Source of the DNA: Pseudomonadota bacterium
GTDB lineage: Bacteria; Pseudomonadota; Gammaproteobacteria; Xanthomonadales; Rhodanobacteraceae
Length of the DNA stretch: 13,451 nucleotides
Assembly (NCBI GenBank): GCA_025351555.1
Contig: JANXVS010000473.1
Span: 1-13,451 of the forward strand
Direction of reading: 5' to 3'
This document shows positions 718-13,451 of this stretch, piece by piece. A model generated the notes under the pieces. The model saw only the letters and a program-made list of their open reading frames with translations. It was not told where the DNA came from and did not search any database. Position 1 is the stretch's first letter; each line of letters starts with the position of its first letter. Position numbers and translations under genes: made by a program.

Positions 718-752
718 GGCGCGACTATAGGCGGCGGCTTGGGGACGGTCAA
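717..752 (-). promoter_or_regulatory. Strong promoter of the ZapB-like/zapA operon, probably giving a leaderless mRNA
   Basis: On the minus strand: -35 TTGACC (752-747), exactly 17 bp, -10 TATAGT (729-724), then six bases to the ATG at 717-715. The usual start site seven bases after the -10 falls on the A of the ATG, so the transcript would have no 5' leader. No purine-rich ribosome binding site is present upstream, consistent with this. The -35 overlaps the stop codon (TGA, 751-749) of the upstream c-di-GMP enzyme gene. Confidence 0.68.
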
Positions 753-3700
753 CGCACCGTGCGCTGCGGGCGCGCCGGCAGGCGGCTGCGCTCGAATTCG
801 CGGATGAAGGTGAAGCACGCTGCGGCGGTCAGCGGCGGCGACAGCCAGTGGCCCTGGATTTCGTCGCAACCCTGTTCATGCAGGTATTCCAGCTGCTCCA
901 GGGTTTCCACGCCTTCGGCGATGACATTCAAGCCGAGCGAATGCGCCATCGTGATGATGGTCTTGGTGATGGCCTCGTCGTCTGGATCAGTGGTGATGTC
1001 GCCGACGAAGCTACGATCGATCTTGAGTCGGTCGATCGGCAGGCGCTTGAGGTAGCTCAGCGACGAGTAGCCGGTGCCGAAATCGTCGATCGCGATGGAT
1101 ACGCCCAGGGTATGCAGCCGGTTCAGCGTGTGAATCGCCAAGTCCGCGTTGGCCATCAGCACACTCTCGGTCAGTTCCAGTTCCAGTTGCGCCGGCGCGA
1201 GCTTGAGTTCGGCCAGGATCTCGCACAGGCGCTGGGTCAGGTCGTCGCGCAGCAGTTGCAGCGCCGACAGATTCACCGACATGGTGATGTTGTGCAAGCC
1301 GCGATGCTGCCATTCGCGCAGTTGCGTGCAGGCGTGATACAGCACGAACTCGCCGATGCGGTCGATTAGGCCCGCCTCTTCGGCCAGGGGAATGAATACG
1401 ACCGGAGAGACCTCGCCAAGCTCGGGATTGGTCCAGCGAAGCAGCGCCTCCACGCCGGTGATGCGGGCTTCATCCAGCGTCAGCATGGGCTGATAGACCA
1501 GGCTCAACTCGTTGCGCTCCAGGGCCATGCGCAAGGCGCCGATCATGTTGGCGCGCTGGCGCGCCTGCGCATCCATCGCCGGGGTGTACAGCATGTAGGT
1601 GTTACGGCCGCCTTCCTTGGCCTGATACATCGCGGTATCCGCGAACTTGAGCAGGTCCGTCGGCACCTGGGCGTGATCCGGATACAGGCTGATGCCGATC
1701 GACGGTGAGATCACCACTTCCTGGCCGGTGTCGAGCGCGAGTGGGCGGGAAAATACCTCGAGCAGGCTACGCGCCACGTTCACGGGTTCATCGCCGTGCT
1801 GTACATCTTCCAGCACCACAGTGAACTCATCGCCACCGAGCCGGGCCACAGTCGCCGATTCGCGCACGCTGGCGCGCAGGCGCGCGCCGACAGCCTTGAG
1901 CACGCGATCGCCGGTGGCATGACCCATCGAATCGTTGACGTGTTTGAAGCGATCCAGATCCAGGAACAGCACGGCGACCTTGCGCGCCGTGCGACGCGCA
2001 CGGATAACCGCATGCGCGAGACGTTCGCCGAGCAGGGTGCGGTTCGGCAAGCCGGTCAAGGTGTCGTAGTTGGCCAGGTAGCGCAGCTCCTGCTCGGCGC
2101 GCTTGCGGTCGGTGATGTCGTTCATCACGCCGACGAAATGCGTGCGTTCTCCGGCGGCGTCGCGTACTTCGCTGACCTCAAGCCAGCACAGGAATTCCTC
2201 GCCATCTTTGCGCCGTTGCCACAACTCGCCATGCCAGTGGCCGCTGCGCACGAACTCCGCGCGTATCGCCAGGTAAAACTCGGTCGGATGTTGCGGGCTG
2301 TTGAGCGCGTCGGCGGTATGACCGATGACATCGGTTTCGCTGTAGCCGCTCATGCGCGTGAAGGCGCGATTGATCGAGACGAAGTGAAATTCCAAATCGG
2401 TGACGGCGACGGCCTCGCTCATGCTGGCGATGACTTCGGCGGCGATGCGGCGCTCGCGCTCGGTCGCGCGCGAGACGGTGATGTTGCGCGCCGTGCCACA
2501 CACGTGCAGTGCACGGCCGTTGGCGTCGCGTTCGACGGCCTTGCCACGCGACAGCACCCAGATCCACTCGCCGGCGGCGTTACGGATGCGATGTTCGGAT
2601 TCGTAGAAGTCGCGGCGGCCCTCGATATGATCGTAAAGGCGCTGCTCGACCTGGGCCAGATCGTCCGGATGCACGGCGTGCTGGCGCCACTGCGCAGCCG
2701 ACAGGGTTTCCTCGCGGCGACCGCCGAGCAACTGGTCGGCGCCGATGCGGTGGATGGTTGCTGCATTCACATCGAAGTCCCAGAACTCGTCGCCTGATCC
2801 CCACAGCGCCAGTCGCAAGCGGTCTTCGCGCCGGCGCAATTCGTCGTGATGGCGCTGCTCGCGCGCGCGCCGACGGCGGTAGCCCAGCCATCCCAGCCAG
2901 AGCAGCAACGCCGCGACCGCGACATACAACAGTTGCATTCCGCGGCTCGCCCACCACGGCGGCGTTACCGTCAGGCGCAGATGGGTGCCGTCGTCATTCC
3001 ATACACCATCGTGGTTGCTGGCGCGAACCTCGAAAACGTAATCTCCTGCTGGCAGATTGGTATAGGTGGCATCGTGGCGCGTGCCGGCTTTTATCCAGTC
3101 CTCGTCGAAACCCTGCAAGCGGTAGACGAACTGGTTCTGCTCGGGCGCGGCATAGTCCAGTGCAGCGAACTCGAAGCGCACCACGCGCTGCGCTTGCGAC
3201 ATCGCCAACTCGTCGCCTGGCGCGTGCAGCAGACCATGCGCGCTACCGGTCTGCGCGCCGGTGATCACCACTGGCGCCATATAGGTGTCGTGCTTGATCA
3301 CCTCCGGGTCGAACAGGTTGATGCCGTGAATGCCGCCGAATACCATCTCGCCGTTGCCGCGCCGGTAGCTGGCGGCGGCATTGAATTCCAGACCTTGCAA
3401 GCCGTCCTTGAGCGAAAATGCCCTGAATTGCCCCAATGCGCGATCAAACCGGGCGACGCCGCGATTGGTGCTCAGCCACAGATTGTGGTGCCTATCCTCC
3501 AGGATGCCGTAGATGGTTGCGCTGGGCAGCCCGTTCTTTGTGGAATAATGCACAAAGTTTACATTTTCATTGCTTGGAACGTCCACGCGATCCAGTCCAC
3601 TATGCGTGCCGATCCACAGCGCGCCGTCCCCGCTCTGCTGGATTGCGCGCACCAGATTGTCGGCCAGCGAGTGCGGATCGGCCGGATCGTGACGGAAGCT

Positions 3701-5401
3701 GCGCATGCGGCGCTTGGCGGGGTCATAGGCGCTTAATCCGTCCAGGGTGCCGATCCAGACGCGGCCATCCGTATCTTCAGTCAGCGCAAGCACGCGATCG
3801 TGTGCCAGGCTATCGGGCTCTCCGGCATGGTGACGAAACACTTCCCAGCGTCCCGCTGGTGCTGATGTTGGCGGCGCTGACGTCGATGCAGATGATGTCG
3901 ATGCAGATGATGTCGGCGGCCACCAATGCGCCAAACCACTGCCGTAAGTGCCAAACCAAAGGCTGCCGTCATGCGCGATCAACATCGCGCACACGATGGC
4001 GCCGGGCAGACCATTGCCGTTGACCGGGTCCACCGGCAAAGCCGTGGCGTTGCGCGCATCCGGATCGAGCAGGAAGGCGCCTTGATTGGACGCGACCCAG
4101 AGCTTGTTGCCACCGGCTCCGACCAGCCCACTGATACGCCATAGCGGGTCAGCGCCAGACGATGTTGGGGTCTTGAACACGTCGTTGAAAGACTCGAAGG
4201 TGTCGCGTGCCGGGTCGTAGCGCTTGAGGCCACCGCCATCGGTGCCAAGCCACAGGCGTGCGGCGCCGTCTTCCCAGATCGCACGGATCGTGTTCGTCAT
4301 CTGATTGCGGCCGGGTGTCGGATCCATGACGTAGCGGAACTGCGCGCCATCTGGGTTGGTCGTGGCAGCGCCGCCAATCGTGCCGCCGACCCAGAGCAGG
4401 CCGGACCGGTCGATCGCCAGTTCGGTGGTGAAATCGTCAGGCAGCGATCCGGGCATGGCGTCGTCGTGGCTCAGCGATTGCGTGTTGCCGCTGGCCGGAT
4501 CGTAAATCGTCAGCCCTTCGCCGTAGACCGCCAGCCACAGCCGCCCTTGCCGATCCTGAACCAACGCGTGAATCTGCGTTGCGTCAGGACGCTGCTCGGC
4601 CATGGGCCAGACGTGCTCGGCCGAATCGTTTTGTGCGTCGACCCGGTACAGACCGCTTTCGCTGCCGGCATAGATCGTGGCGTCGGCGGCGATCAGTACG
4701 CAGCGGACGCCGGCAAAGTTGCGCACGACCACCGTTGCATCGCTACCCGGTGCGATGCGCAGCAGACCCGCCGTCGTCGCACTCCATAACGTGCCATCGG
4801 CCGCGAGCGCGAAGCCGTGCACGCGCGCAGCCATTCCGCCGACGGCGGGGAAACGAAAGATCTGGCGACGCGCGCCGGTTTCGGCGTCCATGAGCTCAAT
4901 CCCGGCCGCGGTGCCGACCCATAGTCCGCGCGCCGGATCGAACAGCAGGGCGCTGATGGCGTTGCGTGGTTGCGCGTCCGCACCAGAAATTTGTGCGCCG
5001 GCGGCGATCTTGCCGCTGGCCGGATCCAGCCACGCCAGGCCGCGCGTGTTGCCGCCGATCCACAGGCGCCCGTGGCTATCTTGCGCAAGCGCAGTAACGA
5101 AACTGTCGGGCAGGCTGTCCGGGTTGTCCGCGTCGTGCTTGTAAAGCACATAGCGATAGCCGTCGTACTGATGCAGACCGCCTTGGGTCGCGATCCACAT
5201 GTAACCGGCGCGATCCTGCAAGAACGCGTTGACGGTATGTTGCGTCAGGCCCTGCTCGCTGCCGATATCGTCGAAATAGTAGCGCCGCTCGGCGGCGTGC
5301 GACGCAACGCCGGCCAACAAGCACAAGATCGCGGACAGCCGCACCAGCCAACGTCCGGCCGGGAGTCGTGCTCTAGCTGGACGCGCCGAAAGTTTTGGCA
5401 T
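749..5401 (-). CDS. Periplasmic beta-propeller/Y_Y_Y sensor with PAS-PAS-GGDEF-EAL output (c-di-GMP synthase/phosphodiesterase)
   Basis: This 1550-aa inner-membrane protein probably converts a periplasmic signal into cyclic-di-GMP changes. Order: signal peptide about 1-37 (RLSAILCLLAGVASHAA); two-component-regulator propeller repeats about 45-705 with many LW(I/V/L)G(T/G)..GL..(Y/L)D blades; Y_Y_Y domain about 740-815; one TM helix about 822-842 followed by an arginine-rich stop; linker coiled coil; PAS at about 862-975 and 988-1098; GGDEF about 1105-1270 with intact RLGGDEF (motif at 1189-1193); EAL about 1285-1535 with GVEALLRW (1316-1323), ELTES, IDDFGTGYS (from 1438), LKIDRSF and AEGVET. 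Both catalytic sites look complete. The product-inhibition I-site is degenerate (RESA instead of RxxD, five residues before GGDEF). The start chosen is the ATG at 5401; a TTG at 5425 would add eight residues but lies upstream of the predicted transcription start. The ligand is unknown. Confidence 0.92.
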   Translation of the reverse strand: MPKLSARPARARLPAGRWLVRLSAILCLLAGVASHAAERRYYFDDIGSEQGLTQHTVNAFLQDRAGYMWIATQGGLHQYDGYRYVLYKHDADNPDSLPDSFVTALAQDSHGRLWIGGNTRGLAWLDPASGKIAAGAQISGADAQPRNAISALLFDPARGLWVGTAAGIELMDAETGARRQIFRFPAVGGMAARVHGFALAADGTLWSATTAGLLRIAPGSDATVVVRNFAGVRCVLIAADATIYAGSESGLYRVDAQNDSAEHVWPMAEQRPDATQIHALVQDRQGRLWLAVYGEGLTIYDPASGNTQSLSHDDAMPGSLPDDFTTELAIDRSGLLWVGGTIGGAATTNPDGAQFRYVMDPTPGRNQMTNTIRAIWEDGAARLWLGTDGGGLKRYDPARDTFESFNDVFKTPTSSGADPLWRISGLVGAGGNKLWVASNQGAFLLDPDARNATALPVDPVNGNGLPGAIVCAMLIAHDGSLWFGTYGSGLAHWWPPTSSASTSSASTSAPPTSAPAGRWEVFRHHAGEPDSLAHDRVLALTEDTDGRVWIGTLDGLSAYDPAKRRMRSFRHDPADPHSLADNLVRAIQQSGDGALWIGTHSGLDRVDVPSNENVNFVHYSTKNGLPSATIYGILEDRHHNLWLSTNRGVARFDRALGQFRAFSLKDGLQGLEFNAAASYRRGNGEMVFGGIHGINLFDPEVIKHDTYMAPVVITGAQTGSAHGLLHAPGDELAMSQAQRVVRFEFAALDYAAPEQNQFVYRLQGFDEDWIKAGTRHDATYTNLPAGDYVFEVRASNHDGVWNDDGTHLRLTVTPPWWASRGMQLLYVAVAALLLWLGWLGYRRRRAREQRHHDELRRREDRLRLALWGSGDEFWDFDVNAATIHRIGADQLLGGRREETLSAAQWRQHAVHPDDLAQVEQRLYDHIEGRRDFYESEHRIRNAAGEWIWVLSRGKAVERDANGRALHVCGTARNITVSRATERERRIAAEVIASMSEAVAVTDLEFHFVSINRAFTRMSGYSETDVIGHTADALNSPQHPTEFYLAIRAEFVRSGHWHGELWQRRKDGEEFLCWLEVSEVRDAAGERTHFVGVMNDITDRKRAEQELRYLANYDTLTGLPNRTLLGERLAHAVIRARRTARKVAVLFLDLDRFKHVNDSMGHATGDRVLKAVGARLRASVRESATVARLGGDEFTVVLEDVQHGDEPVNVARSLLEVFSRPLALDTGQEVVISPSIGISLYPDHAQVPTDLLKFADTAMYQAKEGGRNTYMLYTPAMDAQARQRANMIGALRMALERNELSLVYQPMLTLDEARITGVEALLRWTNPELGEVSPVVFIPLAEEAGLIDRIGEFVLYHACTQLREWQHRGLHNITMSVNLSALQLLRDDLTQRLCEILAELKLAPAQLELELTESVLMANADLAIHTLNRLHTLGVSIAIDDFGTGYSSLSYLKRLPIDRLKIDRSFVGDITTDPDDEAITKTIITMAHSLGLNVIAEGVETLEQLEYLHEQGCDEIQGHWLSPPLTAAACFTFIREFERSRLPARPQRTVR
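3879..3914 (-). repeat. 15-bp in-frame tandem repeat coding a Ser/Thr/Ala linker
   Basis: Plus-strand units GACGTCGATGCAGAT (3879-3893), GATGTCGATGCAGAT (3894-3908) and a partial GATGTC (3909-3914). On the minus strand they encode the low-complexity SSASTSSASTS stretch between two propeller blades, about residues 498-508 of the c-di-GMP enzyme. The unit is a multiple of three, so copy changes would lengthen or shorten the loop without a frameshift. Confidence 0.82.
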
Positions 5402-5436
5402 ACTCGATGATACGATTGTCCCCAATCCGCAGTCTA
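5401..5436 (-). promoter_or_regulatory. Candidate promoter of the c-di-GMP enzyme gene, leaderless configuration
   Basis: On the minus strand: -35-like TAGACT (5436-5431), 18-bp spacer, -10 TATCAT (5412-5407, five of six matches), then five bases to the ATG at 5401. A start site six to seven bases after the -10 falls on the first bases of that ATG. There is no ribosome binding site at normal spacing. This supports ATG 5401 over TTG 5425. The -35 is weak. Confidence 0.45.
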
Positions 5437-6149: not shown

Positions 6150-7466
6150 ATGATCGATCGCAAAGAATTTGCCCGCCGTCGCAAACAACTGATGCGCATC
6201 ATCGGCGACGACGCGATCTGCATCGTGCCGGCTGCGCCCGAGCGCCTGCGCAATAACGACAGCCACTATCCGTACCGGCAGGACAGCGATTTCCATTACC
6301 TGACCGGTTTCCCGGAACCCGAAGCGGTGCTGGCGCTGATTCCCGGGCGCGCGCACGGCGAAGTTATCCTGTTTTGCCGCGAGCGCGATCCGGAACGCGA
6401 AGCTTGGGATGGCGCACGCGCAGGGCAGGAAGGCGCCGTGAGCGATTACGGCATGGATGATGCGTTCCCGATTGGCGACATCGATGAGATTCTGCCGGGC
6501 ATGATCGAAGGCCGTTCGCGCGTGTACTACCACTTCGGCCGCACCGCCGAGTTCGATATCGAATTGATCGGCTGGGTCAATCATGTGCGCGGCCAGGTCC
6601 GGCGCGGCGCGCGTGCGCCGCACGAGTTCGTCGCGCTCGGTCACATCCTGCACGATCTGCGTCTGTTCAAGACGCGCGATGAACTGCGGATGATGCGCCG
6701 CGCCGCGAAAATCGCCGGCGAGGCGCATGTGCGCGCGATGCGCAGCGTGCGCCCGGGCATGAACGAGAATGAAGTCGAAGGCGAGTTGCTGCACACGTTC
6801 CGCCGCCACGGCGCGGTGGCCTCATATGAGCCGATCGTCGGCGGTGGCGCGAACGGCTGCGTGCTGCACTATCGCGCCAACAACTCTGTACTGAAGGACG
6901 GCGACCTGCTGCTGATCGACGCTGGCGCCGAATATCAGTGTTACGCCTCCGACATCACGCGCACGTTCCCGGTCAACGGCAAATTTTCCGTCGAGCAGCG
7001 TGCGTTGTACGACCTGGTGCTGGCCGCGCAACGCGCGGCGATCGCGCAGATTCGCCCGGGCCGTCCGTTCGGCGGGTATCACGATGCCGCGGTGCGCGTC
7101 ATCACCGCGGGCCTGATCAAGCTCGGCCTGCTCAAGGGCGGCGTCGACAAGAATATCCGCGAACACAGCTATCGCCGTTTCTACATGCACAAGACCGGGC
7201 ACTGGCTGGGTCTGGACGTGCACGACGTCGGCGACTATCGCGTCGACGGCGAAGATCGCGAGCTGGAACCGGGCATGGTCGTCACGGTGGAACCCGGCAT
7301 CTACATCGCGCCAGATGCAAAAGGTGTCGCCGCGAGATGGCGCGGCATCGGCATCCGCATCGAGGATGACGTCGTCGTCACGCGCACAGAACCGGAAGTC
7401 ATTACCGCCGGCGTGCCGAGCGATGCGGATGAGATCGAGGCGTTGATGGCTGCCGCAAGAAAGTAA
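6150..7466 (+). CDS. pepP: Xaa-Pro aminopeptidase (aminopeptidase P)
   Basis: This 438-aa cytoplasmic dimetal (Mn) peptidase removes N-terminal residues that precede proline. It has an N-terminal AMP_N domain (about 1-135, including the NDSHYPYRQDSDFHYLTGFPEP segment) and a C-terminal pita-bread M24 catalytic domain (about 175-425). All five metal ligands expected from E. coli PepP are visible: D257 (LLIDAG), D268 (SDITRTFP), H351 (GHWLGLDVHDVG), E381 (TVEPGIYI) and E405 (GIRIEDD), plus H358. Length equals the E. coli enzyme (about 440 aa). An AAAGGA at 6133-6138 lies 11 nt before the ATG. In E. coli ubiH and ubiI follow; here an acvB-type gene follows after 18 bp, so the two are probably co-transcribed. 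Confidence 0.97.
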   Translation: MIDRKEFARRRKQLMRIIGDDAICIVPAAPERLRNNDSHYPYRQDSDFHYLTGFPEPEAVLALIPGRAHGEVILFCRERDPEREAWDGARAGQEGAVSDYGMDDAFPIGDIDEILPGMIEGRSRVYYHFGRTAEFDIELIGWVNHVRGQVRRGARAPHEFVALGHILHDLRLFKTRDELRMMRRAAKIAGEAHVRAMRSVRPGMNENEVEGELLHTFRRHGAVASYEPIVGGGANGCVLHYRANNSVLKDGDLLLIDAGAEYQCYASDITRTFPVNGKFSVEQRALYDLVLAAQRAAIAQIRPGRPFGGYHDAAVRVITAGLIKLGLLKGGVDKNIREHSYRRFYMHKTGHWLGLDVHDVGDYRVDGEDRELEPGMVVTVEPGIYIAPDAKGVAARWRGIGIRIEDDVVVTRTEPEVITAGVPSDADEIEALMAAARK

Positions 7467-7484: not shown

Positions 7485-8849
7485 ATGCGCAGGATGTGCC
7501 TTTTGTTAGTGTTTTTTTCTATCGCAAGCACGTCCGTGTTTGCCGCCACCGTGCCCGTGCACTTCGGCCTGTTCGGCAATATCCACACCGCGACGCCGGC
7601 CGGCGAAGTCAAGCGCACCGTCGTGCTGATTTCCGATCGCAACGGCTGGGATGCGCGCAGCGAATCGCTGGCGACCGCGCTGAGCCACGAAGGTGCGCTG
7701 GTGTTTGGCGTGGATCTACCGGCGTATCTTAAGCAAATGGAATCGATCAAGGACAAGTGTTCGTTTCCGGCAGCGCATTTCGAGGAAATGAGCGACTGGA
7801 TGCAGCGCAACCAGAAGGTTGCAAAGTTTACTTATCCACTTTTGATCGGCGATGGCGCGGGCGCCGCGCTGGCGTATGCGGTCGATGCGCAGGCGCCCAA
7901 GGGCACGTTCGCCGGATTGATTACGCTGGGCTACGATTTCGGAGTGCGTTTGCTCAAGCCGATCTGCGCGGGCGACGCCGGCAAGACGTCGACAGCCGAT
8001 GCGAGTGGCCAGTTTCGCATCGTGCCGGTCAACAAATTGCCGAATCCTTGGCTGCCGTTGCCGTTCGCTCCTGGCGCGGTACACAACGGCGCACTGGCTA
8101 AATTGGATGCCATGCTGAAATTGTCGCAGCACGCACCGGCTCCAGCTGGTGCCGATCTCGCCGCCCAACTGGCGCGCTTCACCGAGCCAGTCGTGAGCGC
8201 GCCGGGTCTGCCCGAAGACGTGGCCGACCTGCCCCTGGTCGAAGTTGCCGCGCGGGGCGCGTTCGCAAACCGCTATGCCGTCATCCTCACCGGCGACGGC
8301 GGCTGGGCCGGGCTTGATGTTGCCGTTGCCGATCAATTGTCCAAACGCGGCATCGCCGTGGTCGGCCTGAACACGCTGAAGTTTTTCTGGCAGACGCGCA
8401 AGCCCGAGGAAGCGGCCGATGCGCTGACCCGCATCATCGGCCACTACGGCGCCGAACATCCACAGGCCGACTTCGTCGTGATCGGCTATTCCTTCGGCGC
8501 AGCACTGGCACCGGTCGTGATCAATCGTCTGCCCGACGCCGCGCGTGCGCGCATCGCCGCGCAAGTGCTGATCTCGCCCGATCCGGAAGCCGTGTTCGAG
8601 GTCAAGATGGGCGATTGGTTCGGCTCAGCGCATCACGAAGGCGTGATTCCAATCTCGCCCGAGATCGCCAGGACCAAAGTGCCGGTGATCTGTGTGCACG
8701 GCGATGAAGAAGGTGCCGACAGTTTCTGCCAGACCCTCGTCGGCAAACCGAATGTGCGCCAGCTCGTGTTGTCTGGCGGGCATCATTACAACGGCGATTA
8801 CGACAAGCTGGGGGCGAGTATCGTGGCGAGTTTGCCGCAGAAGAAGTAG
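7485..8849 (+). CDS. acvB: AcvB/VirJ-family periplasmic aminoacyl-phosphatidylglycerol hydrolase
   Basis: This 454-aa secreted protein has a signal peptide at 1-20 (SVFA cleavage). It is two repeated alpha/beta-hydrolase halves, the arrangement of Agrobacterium AcvB, which hydrolyses lysyl-PG. The second half (about 255-454) is VirJ-like and looks active: LTGDGGW (268-274), nucleophile S336 in GYSFGA, D407 in HGDEEG and H433/H434 in SGGHHY. The first half (about 40-230) looks inactive: SDRNGW replaces SGDGGW, and GDGAG (122-126) replaces the G-x-S-x-G elbow, losing the serine. C92 and C161 fall where the 320-aa paralogue at 11602-12564 has C150 and C219. It probably sits in one transcript with pepP and converges on mprF, the likely source of its substrate. 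No virB genes are nearby, so a VirJ role in T-DNA transfer is unlikely. Its stop codon lies inside a REP element. Confidence 0.88.
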   Translation: MRRMCLLLVFFSIASTSVFAATVPVHFGLFGNIHTATPAGEVKRTVVLISDRNGWDARSESLATALSHEGALVFGVDLPAYLKQMESIKDKCSFPAAHFEEMSDWMQRNQKVAKFTYPLLIGDGAGAALAYAVDAQAPKGTFAGLITLGYDFGVRLLKPICAGDAGKTSTADASGQFRIVPVNKLPNPWLPLPFAPGAVHNGALAKLDAMLKLSQHAPAPAGADLAAQLARFTEPVVSAPGLPEDVADLPLVEVAARGAFANRYAVILTGDGGWAGLDVAVADQLSKRGIAVVGLNTLKFFWQTRKPEEAADALTRIIGHYGAEHPQADFVVIGYSFGAALAPVVINRLPDAARARIAAQVLISPDPEAVFEVKMGDWFGSAHHEGVIPISPEIARTKVPVICVHGDEEGADSFCQTLVGKPNVRQLVLSGGHHYNGDYDKLGASIVASLPQKK

Positions 8850-8899
8850 CGTGCGCTACGCGCACGAATGAATGAAATCGTGCGCGCAGCGCACGCTAC
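8846..8899. repeat. Inverted pair of GTAG-type REP units (SMAG/BIME-like), probable transcript barrier
   Basis: Unit 1 (8846-8866, plus): GTAG, then stem CGTGCG, loop CTACG, stem CGCACG. Unit 2 (8899-8879, minus): GTAG, CGTGCG, loop CTGCG, CGCACG. They face each other across 12 bp. The whole element is a 22-bp inverted repeat with one mismatch and a 10-nt loop. A GTAG foot beside a GC hairpin is the hallmark of REP sequences mobilised by RAYT (IS200-like) transposases, such as SMAGs of Stenotrophomonas. It lies between the ends of two convergent genes and could block readthrough, although no U-tract follows. The TAG of the first GTAG is the acvB stop codon. Confidence 0.85.
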
Positions 8900-8955
8900 G
8901 GACTGGTGACGACGAGGATTCACGATCTGAGATATCGGATGGTTTATCGCCGTGA

Positions 8956-11574
8956 TCAACTGCCGCCAATCAAAAACCGCCTGTACCCGCCCGACACCAA
9001 CGCCGCGATATCGATCAGCAGGCCCGGCACCCAGGTGCCGCGCGGGTAGGCCAGGTACGAGCCGACCCAATCGGGTTTGAATTTGTCCTTGTACTTGCGC
9101 ACGCCCTGATAGTTGTACAAGCGGTTGCCGTACTGGAACGCGAGCGCGGCGAGACGTTCGTTGACGCGTGCGTAGGGATTGTCGCCGACGCGCGACAGCG
9201 GCGCCATGCCGAGGCTGAAGATCGCGTAGCCCTGTTCCTGCGCCCACAGCATGACCTTGGCGAACAGGAAATCCATCGTGCTGCGCGGGGCGTCGGCGAC
9301 GTGGCGCATCAGGTCCACGCTGGCGTGACCACCAGGTCCGTACGGCGGCAGCACGTTCGCGAACGCGATCAGCTCGCCATCGCGGTGCACCAGGCCGAGC
9401 GGGCTCCAGGCGAAATACGCCGGATCGAAGCGGCCGAGCGAAAAGCCCTTCTCGTTGCCTTCCTTGTCTGCCAGCCAGGCATCGGATACGCGCTCCAGCT
9501 CGCTGACGAGCGCAGTATCGAACGGCGGGTATACAAGGGTAAAAGTCAACTTTTCCTTTTGTGCACGATTGCACGCCTGGCGCAGGTCTTCCCAGCGCTT
9601 GCCGGCAAGCGAGAATTCCTCGAGCCTGACCAAGGCCAGCTCGCCGAGCTTGAACAGGTCGAAGCCGTGGTCGTGATAGCGCGACAGATCCGGTTCCAGC
9701 ACTTCGTAGAACACCGGCATGCGGTCTTGGGCGTCGGCGAAATGGCGGAAGTCGAGAATTGCGCGATCGATGCCGGCGTCGGTGCCGCAGGGTGAACCGA
9801 GCGCGACGAGGCGATCGCGGATCGCGCCATAGGCGATCACGGCCTGATGATCGGCCGCCCAGAACAGATGCTTGTCGGCCATGAAAGTCAGATGCGCGAA
9901 TTCGCCGCCGCCGTGTTCCCGGTACAGCGCGCGCGCGCGTTCGAGTTCATTGTGATCCGGCAGCACCAGCTGTGGACGCTTGACCGCAAACACCTGCCAG
10001 ATCGTGTAGATCACCAGGCCAAGCAAGGCGGCAGCGAGGCCGCGGCCTATGCGCGAAGTGTGCTCGCCGAAGCCGACGTAGAACAGATCGAACGAGTCAT
10101 CGCCCAGCACCTGGGCGACTCCAATCGCGAAGAATACAAGTACACAAAGCAACAATCCGGCGTACCAGCCGAGTGTGGTCGCCGAGGTCAGGGTCATCGC
10201 GCGCCGCGTGAACGCGCGCTTGCGCGTACGCAACAGCGCGGCGACCGCGAGCAGAAACAGCGCTTCGCCGAAATGCAGACCTTTGGTGATCGCCAGTCCC
10301 GCGCTGAGCAGCAGCAGCCATTGTGAGACCCGATATGCCAGACGCAAGCGGCCGTCGATACCGCGCGCGAGCCCGAGCAACAAGACGCCGGAAACGATGC
10401 TGAACCAGTTCGAGCTTTCCACGGCCAGGATCGGCAGGTTCGCGCGCACGACTTCGATGTGCTCGATGACCGACGGTATGGCTGCCGAGGCCAATTGCAT
10501 CGCTCCGGCGCCGAAGGTCAGCACGGCGAGCAGACGTGTGCCCAGATCCGCGAGCAAGGTGACCGGCAGGCCGAGGACGCCGAACAGTGGATGGCCGGCG
10601 AGACGTTGGCGCAGACGATTGAGCAGCGGCATGCGCTGGGTCAGCATTTCCGAGCCTAGATACAGACTGCCAAGCAGTGGCAGCAGGTAATAGGCGATAC
10701 GGAACAGCACCAGACCCGACACGATAGGCGCGTGATCGTAGCCGGCTTCGGTCAAGGCCAGCAGCATCAAGCCGTCGAACACGCCCAGTCCACCCGGCAC
10801 CAGGCTGACCAGGCCAAGCGTGGTCGCACCGGCAAAAGCACCAAGCATCAGTCCGGGTTTCACATGGGCGCCGGACAGATATAGACAGGCGTACAGGGTC
10901 GCGGCGGTCAGCAGCCAGTCGAGAAACGAGATCAGGGTCAGTTGCAGCTTCAGTGGCAGCGGCGGCATGCCCATTTCCGCCGGGAGCCAACGCATCAGTG
11001 CCCGCCGCGTGGTCAGGAAAAAGTATAAAGGTAGATAAAGTGCGGCCGCGACGAGGATGCCGAACGCCGCTATCCGTTGTGCCGTACCGCTGGTCATCGG
11101 CAGCGAGCTGGTGACCAGGGTCAGCACGACCAGCAGGCTCAGGCCCAGCGGTAGCGACAGTGCCTGCATGCCGATCAGTGCTGCCGCGCGCGGCAATTCA
11201 ACGCGCTGCGAGGTGAGGCCCATCAGGCGGATGCCGGCGCCGACTGCGCCGGACAAGTTCAGGGTATTGGCCAGGCTGTTGGCGACGAAGGCCAGGCGCA
11301 AGTAGTCGCGTGTGCGCAGGCCCAGTTTGAGCCAGTGCCCGATCAGGATGTCCACGCAGCCGGTGAAGACGACGCTAAGGGTGGCTAGCGCGGCGACGCC
11401 CAGTGCCGGCAAAGTTGGCACATCCAGCAGGGTGCGTTGCACTTCGGGCAGATTGAACTCGTCGACGCCGCGCCAGAGTAGCCAGGCGGTCAATGCCAGG
11501 AAGGCGCTCGGCACGATCCAGCGCAGACGCGCAAAAAAATGGCGTCCGGTGTGCGTTGTGCTGGAATCGCTCAT
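8956..11574 (-). CDS. mprF: Bifunctional phosphatidylglycerol lysyltransferase/flippase MprF
   Basis: This 872-aa inner-membrane enzyme transfers an amino acid (typically lysine) from aminoacyl-tRNA to phosphatidylglycerol and flips the product, lowering surface negative charge and protecting against cationic peptides. Residues about 15-535 hold around 14 hydrophobic helices, with the UPF0104/flippase signature SLVPGGLGVFDG (257-268). Residues about 540-850 form the cytosolic GNAT-like DUF2156 synthase domain, with EKGFSLGRFD (708-717), DLMRH (754-758), FSLGMAPLS (786-794) and the YNYQGVRKYKDKF block (820-832). Both modules look complete, and length is normal. The start ATG at 11574 lacks a clear Shine-Dalgarno and lies 27 nt after the upstream hydrolase stop, suggesting one operon. 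The donor amino acid (Lys or Ala) cannot be told by eye. Confidence 0.96.
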   Translation of the reverse strand: MSDSSTTHTGRHFFARLRWIVPSAFLALTAWLLWRGVDEFNLPEVQRTLLDVPTLPALGVAALATLSVVFTGCVDILIGHWLKLGLRTRDYLRLAFVANSLANTLNLSGAVGAGIRLMGLTSQRVELPRAAALIGMQALSLPLGLSLLVVLTLVTSSLPMTSGTAQRIAAFGILVAAALYLPLYFFLTTRRALMRWLPAEMGMPPLPLKLQLTLISFLDWLLTAATLYACLYLSGAHVKPGLMLGAFAGATTLGLVSLVPGGLGVFDGLMLLALTEAGYDHAPIVSGLVLFRIAYYLLPLLGSLYLGSEMLTQRMPLLNRLRQRLAGHPLFGVLGLPVTLLADLGTRLLAVLTFGAGAMQLASAAIPSVIEHIEVVRANLPILAVESSNWFSIVSGVLLLGLARGIDGRLRLAYRVSQWLLLLSAGLAITKGLHFGEALFLLAVAALLRTRKRAFTRRAMTLTSATTLGWYAGLLLCVLVFFAIGVAQVLGDDSFDLFYVGFGEHTSRIGRGLAAALLGLVIYTIWQVFAVKRPQLVLPDHNELERARALYREHGGGEFAHLTFMADKHLFWAADHQAVIAYGAIRDRLVALGSPCGTDAGIDRAILDFRHFADAQDRMPVFYEVLEPDLSRYHDHGFDLFKLGELALVRLEEFSLAGKRWEDLRQACNRAQKEKLTFTLVYPPFDTALVSELERVSDAWLADKEGNEKGFSLGRFDPAYFAWSPLGLVHRDGELIAFANVLPPYGPGGHASVDLMRHVADAPRSTMDFLFAKVMLWAQEQGYAIFSLGMAPLSRVGDNPYARVNERLAALAFQYGNRLYNYQGVRKYKDKFKPDWVGSYLAYPRGTWVPGLLIDIAALVSGGYRRFLIGGS

Positions 11575-11601
11575 GGTTGTGCCGAGTCTGGCGCCGATGG
11601 A

Positions 11602-12564
11602 CTACCGGTCGGATGCGGCAACGTGTCGCGGAGCGCCGTCGAGCCGATCCAGCAGATCGAGCAGGCCCTGACGATATTGCGGCATCCAGTTTCTCGGCAC
11701 CGAGTAGCCGTGTCCGACCTTCGGCAGCATGACGACTTGGCCGCCTTTGACCTGCTCGACAAACTCTCTGGTTGCCGGTGGGTTGCAGACCTGGTCGATC
11801 TCGCCCTGCAGCACGATCCAGGGTGCGCCGACCTTGGGCACCGTGTTGAAGATCGGCGTGTACGGCGCCTTGGACATCTTCGTGGCCGTCAGCTTGCCGG
11901 CGCCTTCGCACCAGGGTTTGTGGATGATCAGATCCGGGCAGAAACCCAGCGTCATCGCGCCGCCGAAACGGGTATCGCCCGCCTGCGCCAGCGCGGCGTA
12001 CGCAATCGTCGCGCCAGAGGAATAACCGATCAGGACGGGCCGAAAAGTCGATGGCAGTTTCATCCGGGTTTTCACCGTCTCGCCGAGTTGATCGAGCAGC
12101 CCTGAGGCATCGCTGCATTTGCCATCGCCGGTTTCCAGATCCTTGAGGAAGGCCGGTGTGCTGAAACCTGCCACCCAATAGCCCAGCTCCGCCGCCGTGC
12201 GCGCCATATCCCATACGCCCAAGTTCCAGCCGCCATCGCCGGAAGCAAACAGCGCCAGACCGCGCGCCTGTCCTTGCGGCGCATAGATCGTCACTTCGCC
12301 GAGTCCGTCCACATCGAAAATGCGCGCGGCTGCTGGATCATGCGCCGGTGGCTTGGGTTTTGCCTTTGCCACGGGTGCCGGTGCTGCTTTGGCGCGAATG
12401 GATTTGGCTACGTGTGGATTTTGTTTCATTTTCGAAGGCGCGGCTGCCGCCGTCGATGGCACCGGCGTCGACGATGTCGTGTGCTCGGCAGCGGCCGAAT
12501 GGGTCGAAGTGGCGACGGTGGCGGCCAGCAACAGCGCGGCTGGCGCGATCAAGCGCGAAAACAT
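11602..12564 (-). CDS. Secreted VirJ/AcvB-like alpha/beta hydrolase, single-domain, upstream of mprF
   Basis: This 320-aa exported protein has a signal peptide at about 1-26 (ending HSAAA), a Ser/Thr/Ala/Pro/Lys-rich linker at about 28-78, then one alpha/beta-hydrolase domain (80-312). The catalytic set is complete: SGDGGW oxyanion loop (108-113), nucleophile S182 in GYSSG, D257 in QGEIDQ and H285 in VGHGYS. It aligns by eye with the first half of the AcvB protein at 7485-8849: PAFLKDLE...DGKC against PAYLKQME...KDKC, and VLIGYSSGATIAYA against LLIGDGAGAALAYA. That half of AcvB has lost the serine. Cysteines C150, C209, C219 and C260 could form disulfides. A good AGGAG (12575-12571) lies 6 nt before the ATG at 12564. 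Being 27 nt ahead of mprF, it probably acts on MprF's product or a related lipid. The substrate is inferred only. Confidence 0.87.
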   Translation of the reverse strand: MFSRLIAPAALLLAATVATSTHSAAAEHTTSSTPVPSTAAAAPSKMKQNPHVAKSIRAKAAPAPVAKAKPKPPAHDPAAARIFDVDGLGEVTIYAPQGQARGLALFASGDGGWNLGVWDMARTAAELGYWVAGFSTPAFLKDLETGDGKCSDASGLLDQLGETVKTRMKLPSTFRPVLIGYSSGATIAYAALAQAGDTRFGGAMTLGFCPDLIIHKPWCEGAGKLTATKMSKAPYTPIFNTVPKVGAPWIVLQGEIDQVCNPPATREFVEQVKGGQVVMLPKVGHGYSVPRNWMPQYRQGLLDLLDRLDGAPRHVAASDR

Positions 12565-12846: not shown

Positions 12847-13451
12847 TCAATACATGCCGTGCGAGCGGCGCACATGTTCCAGACTCACGCGTCCGCGCAA
12901 CACGCGGTACACCCACGCCGTATAGGCCAGCACGATCGGCAGCAGGGCCACGGTGCTGAGCAGCATCAGGCCAAGCGTGCTCTTGCTGCTGGAAGCATCC
13001 CAGACGGTCAGGCTGCTGTTTGGGTCCAGGCTTGACGGCAGCAGGAAGGGGAACAGGGCGAAGCCTGCCGAAAGTATGGTCGCGGCGATGGTCAGCGCAC
13101 TGGCGGCAAACGCCGTCCGGTGTCGTGGCGACAAGCTCAGCGCGGCCATCGCTGCAGCGGACACCACAGCCAACGCCGGCGCCAGCCAGAAAATGAAATG
13201 ACGCCCGGGGAAACCGGCGAACCAGTTACCCTGCACAAGGACATGCTTGAGCAAGGGATTCGACGGCACATCGCCCGCAACGACCGAAACGATGGCGTAA
13301 CCAGGTTGGCCAAATGCAAGCCAGGCGCCCGCTGCAAGGTACAGCAGCACGAAGACAATGACCGCGATGCGCGCAACGCGCGATGCACGCGCGGCAAGCG
13401 CGATATCGGCCTTCATCGCCGCGTAGGCCGCACCGTGCATCAGGATCATCG
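12847..13451 (-). CDS. cydB: Cytochrome bd quinol oxidase subunit II, C-terminal part (partial)
   Basis: This is the last 200 or so residues of CydB (usual length about 380 aa); the start lies beyond the right window edge. CydB is the second membrane subunit of the cytochrome bd quinol:O2 oxidoreductase, a high-affinity, proton-pumping-independent terminal oxidase. Visible features are hydrophobic helices ([80 protein letters not shown]), the periplasmic GRHFIFW segment and the diagnostic LTVWDASSS motif before the last helix. The C-terminus ends in HGMY. Its stop codon overlaps the upstream edge of the cydX ribosome binding site. No frameshift is seen in the part present. Confidence 0.97.

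Follow-up and report, generated by a model that had tools for sequence, protein, structure and literature searches.

The window, by which we mean the whole 13,451-nt stretch of DNA analysed here, comes from a draft assembly of 603 contigs that is 80% complete. It holds, in this order, zapA and a large Reg_prop/PAS/GGDEF/EAL protein on the minus strand, UPF0149, pepP and acvB on the plus strand, and mprF, a gene for a 320-aa protein (h320) and cydB on the minus strand (Table 1). A first-pass annotation had described an mprF with two hydrolase-family neighbours, one of them a two-half AcvB converging on it, and the three open reading frames were confirmed in both position and strand. As only 27 nt separate the end of h320 from the start of mprF, co-transcription of these two genes is likely. 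Between the convergent ends of acvB and mprF lies a near-perfect hairpin without a T-run, which is likely to be a transcription stop, maybe from both sides, or a repeat element. The large protein, at 749-5425 beside UPF0149-pepP, is a sensor of 1558 aa that combines propeller repeats with PAS, GGDEF and EAL domains, and matches to it adjoin pepP in many of the loci read. Because the same gene order returns in other genomes, the arrangement of acvB, mprF and h320 is not a product of chance.

Table 1. Features of the acvB-mprF-h320 block and its flanks (positions within the window)
Feature	Position	Strand	Basis or remark
pepP	6150..7466	+	outer neighbour at the acvB end
two-domain acvB, 454 aa	7485..8849	+	ORF, Pfam VirJ, match to AcvB 9xhm
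acvB N-half, without triad	about 7545-8216	+	
acvB C-half, catalytic VirJ domain	about 8217-8846	+	S336, H433 present; D340->A, D370->V (A. tumefaciens numbering)
long hairpin between convergent acvB and mprF ends	8846..8899	.	RNA fold -42.4 kcal/mol, z -7.8
mprF, bifunctional aminoacyl-PG synthase/flippase, 872 aa	8956..11574	-	ORF, Pfam, NCBIfam
h320, secreted-looking alpha/beta hydrolase, AcvB N-domain (D1) type, 320 aa	11602..12564	-	triad Ser182-Asp257-His285
codon of h320 nucleophile Ser182 (GYSSGA)	12019..12021	-	
codon of h320 Asp257	11794..11796	-	
codon of h320 His285	11710..11712	-	
cydB, cut by the window end	12847..13449	-	outer neighbour at the h320 end

The product of mprF passes the NCBIfam model of the bifunctional enzyme (NF033480 bifunc_MprF, 718.6 bits against a cut-off of 600) as well as Pfam LPG_synthase_C/TM. 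The 454-aa protein matches Agrobacterium tumefaciens AcvB (9xhm) across both halves with 211 bits, and its residues 264-452 pass Pfam VirJ with 172 bits against a cut-off of 22. According to PMC13135905, the catalytic residues of AcvB are Ser269, Ser336 and His433, and Asp271 is likewise required (PMC13197417). The 454-aa protein combines the VirJ domain with Ser336 and His433, as is expected of an AcvB/VirJ hydrolase, and carries Thr in place of Ser269. At the lysine-reading site D271/D340/D370, it keeps D271 and has D340 replaced by A and D370 by V, a pattern other than that of a lysyl-PG hydrolase. PMC13197417 also states that full Lys-PG hydrolysis by A. tumefaciens AcvB needs D340 and D370, and D370 is likewise replaced in the makers of Ala-PG that it cites. 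Judged by these residues, the AcvB of the window may not read lysine. Among genomes with type-B mprF, a class set by our own cut on Pfam bits (264-303, with G171 added on a partial hit; 54 genomes), Asp stands at the D340 or D370 place in 0 of 29 AcvB C-halves, while D340 is kept in 30 of 35 other C-halves. Since both residues are replaced, Lys-PG is a doubtful substrate of AcvB throughout the type-B clade, with h320 present or absent. Two side observations concern related hydrolases: G191 has a partial second copy of the AcvB C-domain, 126 aa long and 0.6 kb downstream of acvB (L179:7613-7990), and three loci with the other mprF type (L181, L182, L183) carry a VirJ-type hydrolase directly after mprF, without an N-domain match and with Tyr where AcvB has Trp378.

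The gene upstream of mprF had been annotated as a one-domain VirJ/AcvB-type homologue running in the same direction; its homology, position and strand hold, and its type has to be revised from VirJ to AcvB N-domain. With the N-terminal half of AcvB, the half that is catalytically dead in proteins of solved structure, h320 shares 31% identity over 167 aa (E 2e-19); against the catalytic VirJ half it reaches a weak 24 bits, and with 19.9 bits it falls below the Pfam VirJ cut-off of 22. PADLOC and NCBIfam gave no family for it beyond a 19-bit stray. Its nearest relatives in both sequence and fold are AcvB N-domains, which places it in the D1 lineage, and its fold matches also include broadly esterase-like proteins. 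A truncated VirJ, that is, a protein of the C-domain type, was considered as well and ruled out, as h320 groups with the N-half and h320 rows (100/100) against the 20 C-domain rows used.

The triad Ser182-Asp257-His285 is complete in all 27 h320 loci read, which represent 27 of 32 genomes (the other five are G223, G265 and G310, read only in the 24-sequence alignment, and G255 and G294, whose triads are outside the count). In that alignment, comprising the window and 23 sequences at 45-74% identity to it, Ser108, Asp110, Ser182, Asp257 and His285 are invariant; it covers 24 of 30 loci, with G215, G311 (contig ends), G224, G255, G294 and G317 (inner stop) omitted. Ser108, Asp110 and Ser182 pair with AcvB Ser269, Asp271 and Ser336, and His285 is equated with AcvB His433 because both sit at the end of the fold, the gapped alignment giving them separate columns. 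A conserved triad with a nucleophile elbow is what a serine alpha/beta hydrolase should have, and h320 has both, with the fold-model block 281-290 that contains His285 at a pLDDT of 68. The full triad is found in only one of 60 AcvB N-halves, that of G616 from another class (L163), where four of the 60 (L149, L150, L151 and L157) were missed by the N-profile, cut by position alone and poorly aligned in the triad columns; the N-half of G428 (L164) has Asp and His, and its Ser is gone. The 60 remain from 62 extracted rows after the single-domain L166 and L182 were dropped, and L002-L005 were omitted as duplicates of other loci in the set.

Further residues bear on structure and substrate. Cys209 and Cys260 are lost jointly in 3 of 27 h320 (G176, G211, G245), and this joint loss suggests a disulphide between them. 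Thr186 stands where most C-domains have D340, and residue 211 is acidic (Asp or Glu) in all 24 sequences. From the sequence, h320 is very probably a serine hydrolase, and its signal-like N-terminus, judged by eye, makes a periplasmic location likely. Thr186, the acidic residue 211 and the deep split from the catalytic AcvB domain hint that its specificity may differ from that of AcvB, a suggestion to be taken as tentative. The idea of the first-pass annotation that the two hydrolases stand for two specificities or two control points is likewise a conjecture, with the missing D340 and D370 of the window AcvB as a sequence hint.

The first-pass annotation had made its proposal depend on a conserved linkage of mprF, acvB and h320 in related genomes, and such linkage was found. 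Matches to h320 above 200 bits occur in 32 of 197 genomes of the family, and 32 of these 32 carry type-B mprF, with h320 in none of the 143 family genomes outside type B; G311 counts with one h320/mprF copy, another on contig C229 having been set aside beforehand. In 24 of the 32, h320 immediately precedes mprF in the same orientation, and 18 of these 24 also have a convergent acvB within 8 kb of mprF. On the other side, h320 is missing from 22 of the 54 type-B genomes and is not beside mprF in 8 of 32. Within the genus of the window (16 genomes sampled, some of them fragmented drafts), ten have h320, and acvB is near mprF in 10/10 with h320 and 0/6 without it. Absence of acvB was not counted for G199, G265 and G284, because pepP also lacks a match in those assemblies. 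The convergent orientation of acvB and mprF holds in all 38 type-B genomes that have both within 8 kb, out of 49 with both matches.

Outside the family, profile searches gave matches in 14 of 274 genomes of the class and 21 of 349 of the phylum (window included, the phylum set also containing another family member), and above 100 bits these comprise, besides the window h320, only G616, G428 and G749, all of them fused N-halves. A single-protein search of 151 sampled genomes of the order yielded no full-length free-standing h320 beyond that of the window, and in plasmids 13 records matched, each over less than 80% of the query.

The neighbourhood of h320 has another frequent member. Of the 27 loci read, 19 have cydAB next to h320, with 2 of the 8 misses stopping at a contig edge, and coordinates add G223, G255 and G265 as further cases. 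Of the 8 genomes in which h320 has left mprF, 7 keep it next to cydA, and in one genus (g76) all 11 h320 genes are beside cydA, seven of them without mprF alongside. The cydAB genes stand upstream in the same direction or divergently (L065, L066, L074-L084, L087, L089, L091, L093, L094 and the window), the divergent form being seen in all five unlinked g76 loci read as well as in L074, L077, L080 and L084. This adjacency weakens an argument from mprF linkage alone, and together with the broad esterase-like fold matches it speaks for h320 being an active periplasmic esterase unrelated to MprF, whose place between cydAB and mprF is inherited or whose role lies with cytochrome bd. Against this, the presence of h320 tracks mprF and not cydA. 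Among the 13 g76 genomes, 11 have both h320 and mprF, and the two without h320 also lack mprF and acvB matches; one of these, G186 (99% complete), possesses cydA and shows an empty site (L189:4122-8535) in which pepP, 313 nt, cydA and cydB follow each other and the entire acvB-mprF-h320 block is missing. Likewise, cydA is present and h320 and type-B mprF are absent in G110 and G276, the latter having the other mprF type, while h320 and mprF occur without a cydA match in G203, G248, G277, G303 and G317 (drafts, 80-93% complete). Such patterns are not independent trials, since the genera share history. Moreover, the closest kin of h320 are AcvB domains. An esterase unconnected with MprF is thus unlikely, though the strongest of the alternatives, and a partnership with cytochrome bd, which adjacency favours and the presence pattern opposes, is the less likely assignment.

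In a tree of 87 domains, the 27 h320 form one clade (100/100) whose sister is the N-half of G616 (100/100), separate from the N-halves of their own family. An origin of h320 as a recent copy of the acvB of the same genome was ruled out by this placement. When the tree is rooted with 20 C-domains (9 of 27 h320, 21 of 60 N-half and 20 of 64 C-half rows), the active clade (96/85) stands opposite the other 20 N-halves used (97/85), and a long branch, drawn as 1.5 changes per column on each side of the root, separates the h320/N group from the C-domains. With the active-site blocks masked, h320 and G616 remain joined (92/96), the base loses its resolution and a clade of inactive N-halves is not rejected (p-AU 0.54). 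No proof can be drawn from where the active clade is rooted, as its root is starred when the active-site columns are kept and the base lacks resolution once they are masked. Because regain of a whole triad is unlikely, an N-domain lineage that was active at first would be the simplest reading, not a proven one. Across 21 genomes, the h320 distance matrix correlates with that of mprF at r 0.95, with that of the AcvB C-half at 0.94 and with that of the N-half at 0.90, an agreement that speaks for shared descent, not for joint function.

The G616 AcvB itself (L163:5439-6941) is a two-domain protein encoded straight after mprF; its N-half carries the triad, and its C-half has both members of the catalytic pair, Ser and His. 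The profile search gave no second case in the order to which G616 belongs (1 of 78 genomes with a match), and the protein was perhaps acquired horizontally.

Two further alternatives were weighed. If h320 were redundant with AcvB, it would act on the same substrate as a backup or dose enzyme, in the manner of AcvB and VirJ in octopine-type Agrobacterium, where one strain is known to have two hydrolases (PMC13135905); its membership of another domain lineage, the long branch to the C-domains and Thr186 at the D340 place make this improbable. That h320 is a non-cutting regulator binding AcvB or MprF, as has been proposed for the AcvB N-domain, is very improbable: in its favour, the AcvB C-domain on its own slightly exceeded the activity of the two-domain protein (PMC13197417), yet a regulator needs no triad, and the triad is kept in 27/27 h320 and absent in 59/60 N-halves.

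We favour, with a probability of roughly 0.58, the reading that acvB, mprF and h320 constitute one aminoacyl-phospholipid turnover block between pepP and cydAB, in which h320 would be a second periplasmic aminoacyl-phospholipid hydrolase and a living relative of the dead domain of AcvB. MprF is predicted to make and flip aminoacyl-PG, the C-half of AcvB to strip the amino acid in the periplasm, and h320 to take amino acids off MprF products as a second periplasmic serine hydrolase, probably preferring another amino acid or lipid than AcvB does. That h320 acts on MprF products at all seems, on balance, the better assumption. Its lineage would otherwise survive as the dead N-terminal domain of AcvB.

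A broader proposal, more speculative than the above, is that h320 stands for an undescribed family of hydrolases acting on aminoacyl-phospholipids, with the dead D1 half of AcvB as its orthologue. Two-domain AcvB could then derive from two active erasers of different specificities, which still lie side by side in the G616 AcvB and occupy separate genes in genomes labelled Rudaea or Dokdonella and in their relatives; loss of its triad may in most lineages have turned the first eraser into a regulatory domain. The open-licence papers searched yielded no account of h320 biochemistry, nor of an AcvB N-domain that is catalytically intact or that stands free beside mprF. With their intact catalytic residues, h320 and the G616 AcvB are concrete candidates for the active ancestor of the dead AcvB half, so that work on two proteins could test how that half arose. 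If there is a lipid that h320 erases and AcvB leaves untouched, the control of membrane charge by MprF would include a second off-switch so far overlooked, and MprF products beyond Lys-PG and Ala-PG may have escaped notice.

Among known systems, the Lys-PG hydrolase AcvB of A. tumefaciens (PDB 9xhm/9xhn) shares with the 454-aa protein both halves, S336, H433, D271 and the W378 loop, and each is the partner of an MprF. They differ in that the window acvB converges on mprF instead of following it and that its product has D340 and D370 replaced and T for S269. The lpiA-acvB operon, with acvB downstream of mprF on the same strand, is accordingly not the layout of the window. PA0919, the aminoacyl-PG hydrolase of Pseudomonas aeruginosa, is an AcvB homologue in a maker of Ala-PG and, by an alignment remark in PMC13197417, has D370 replaced as in the window AcvB; by the description given there, it keeps D340, which the window AcvB has lost. 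VirJ of octopine Ti plasmids and the VirJ-type neighbour of this family's other mprF type resemble h320 as small hydrolases accompanying MprF/AcvB, but they are C-domain proteins, and h320 falls outside the C clade (100/100). The best sequence and fold match of h320 is the D1 domain of AcvB and Brucella VirJ (PDB 9rc4), and Cys at the Cys150 and Cys219 places is common to h320 and most AcvB N-halves. D1 is fused and, in Brucella VirJ, is reported to be without a catalytic triad (PMC13135905), whereas h320 is free-standing, has its triad intact and carries a second cysteine pair (209, 260) in most members.
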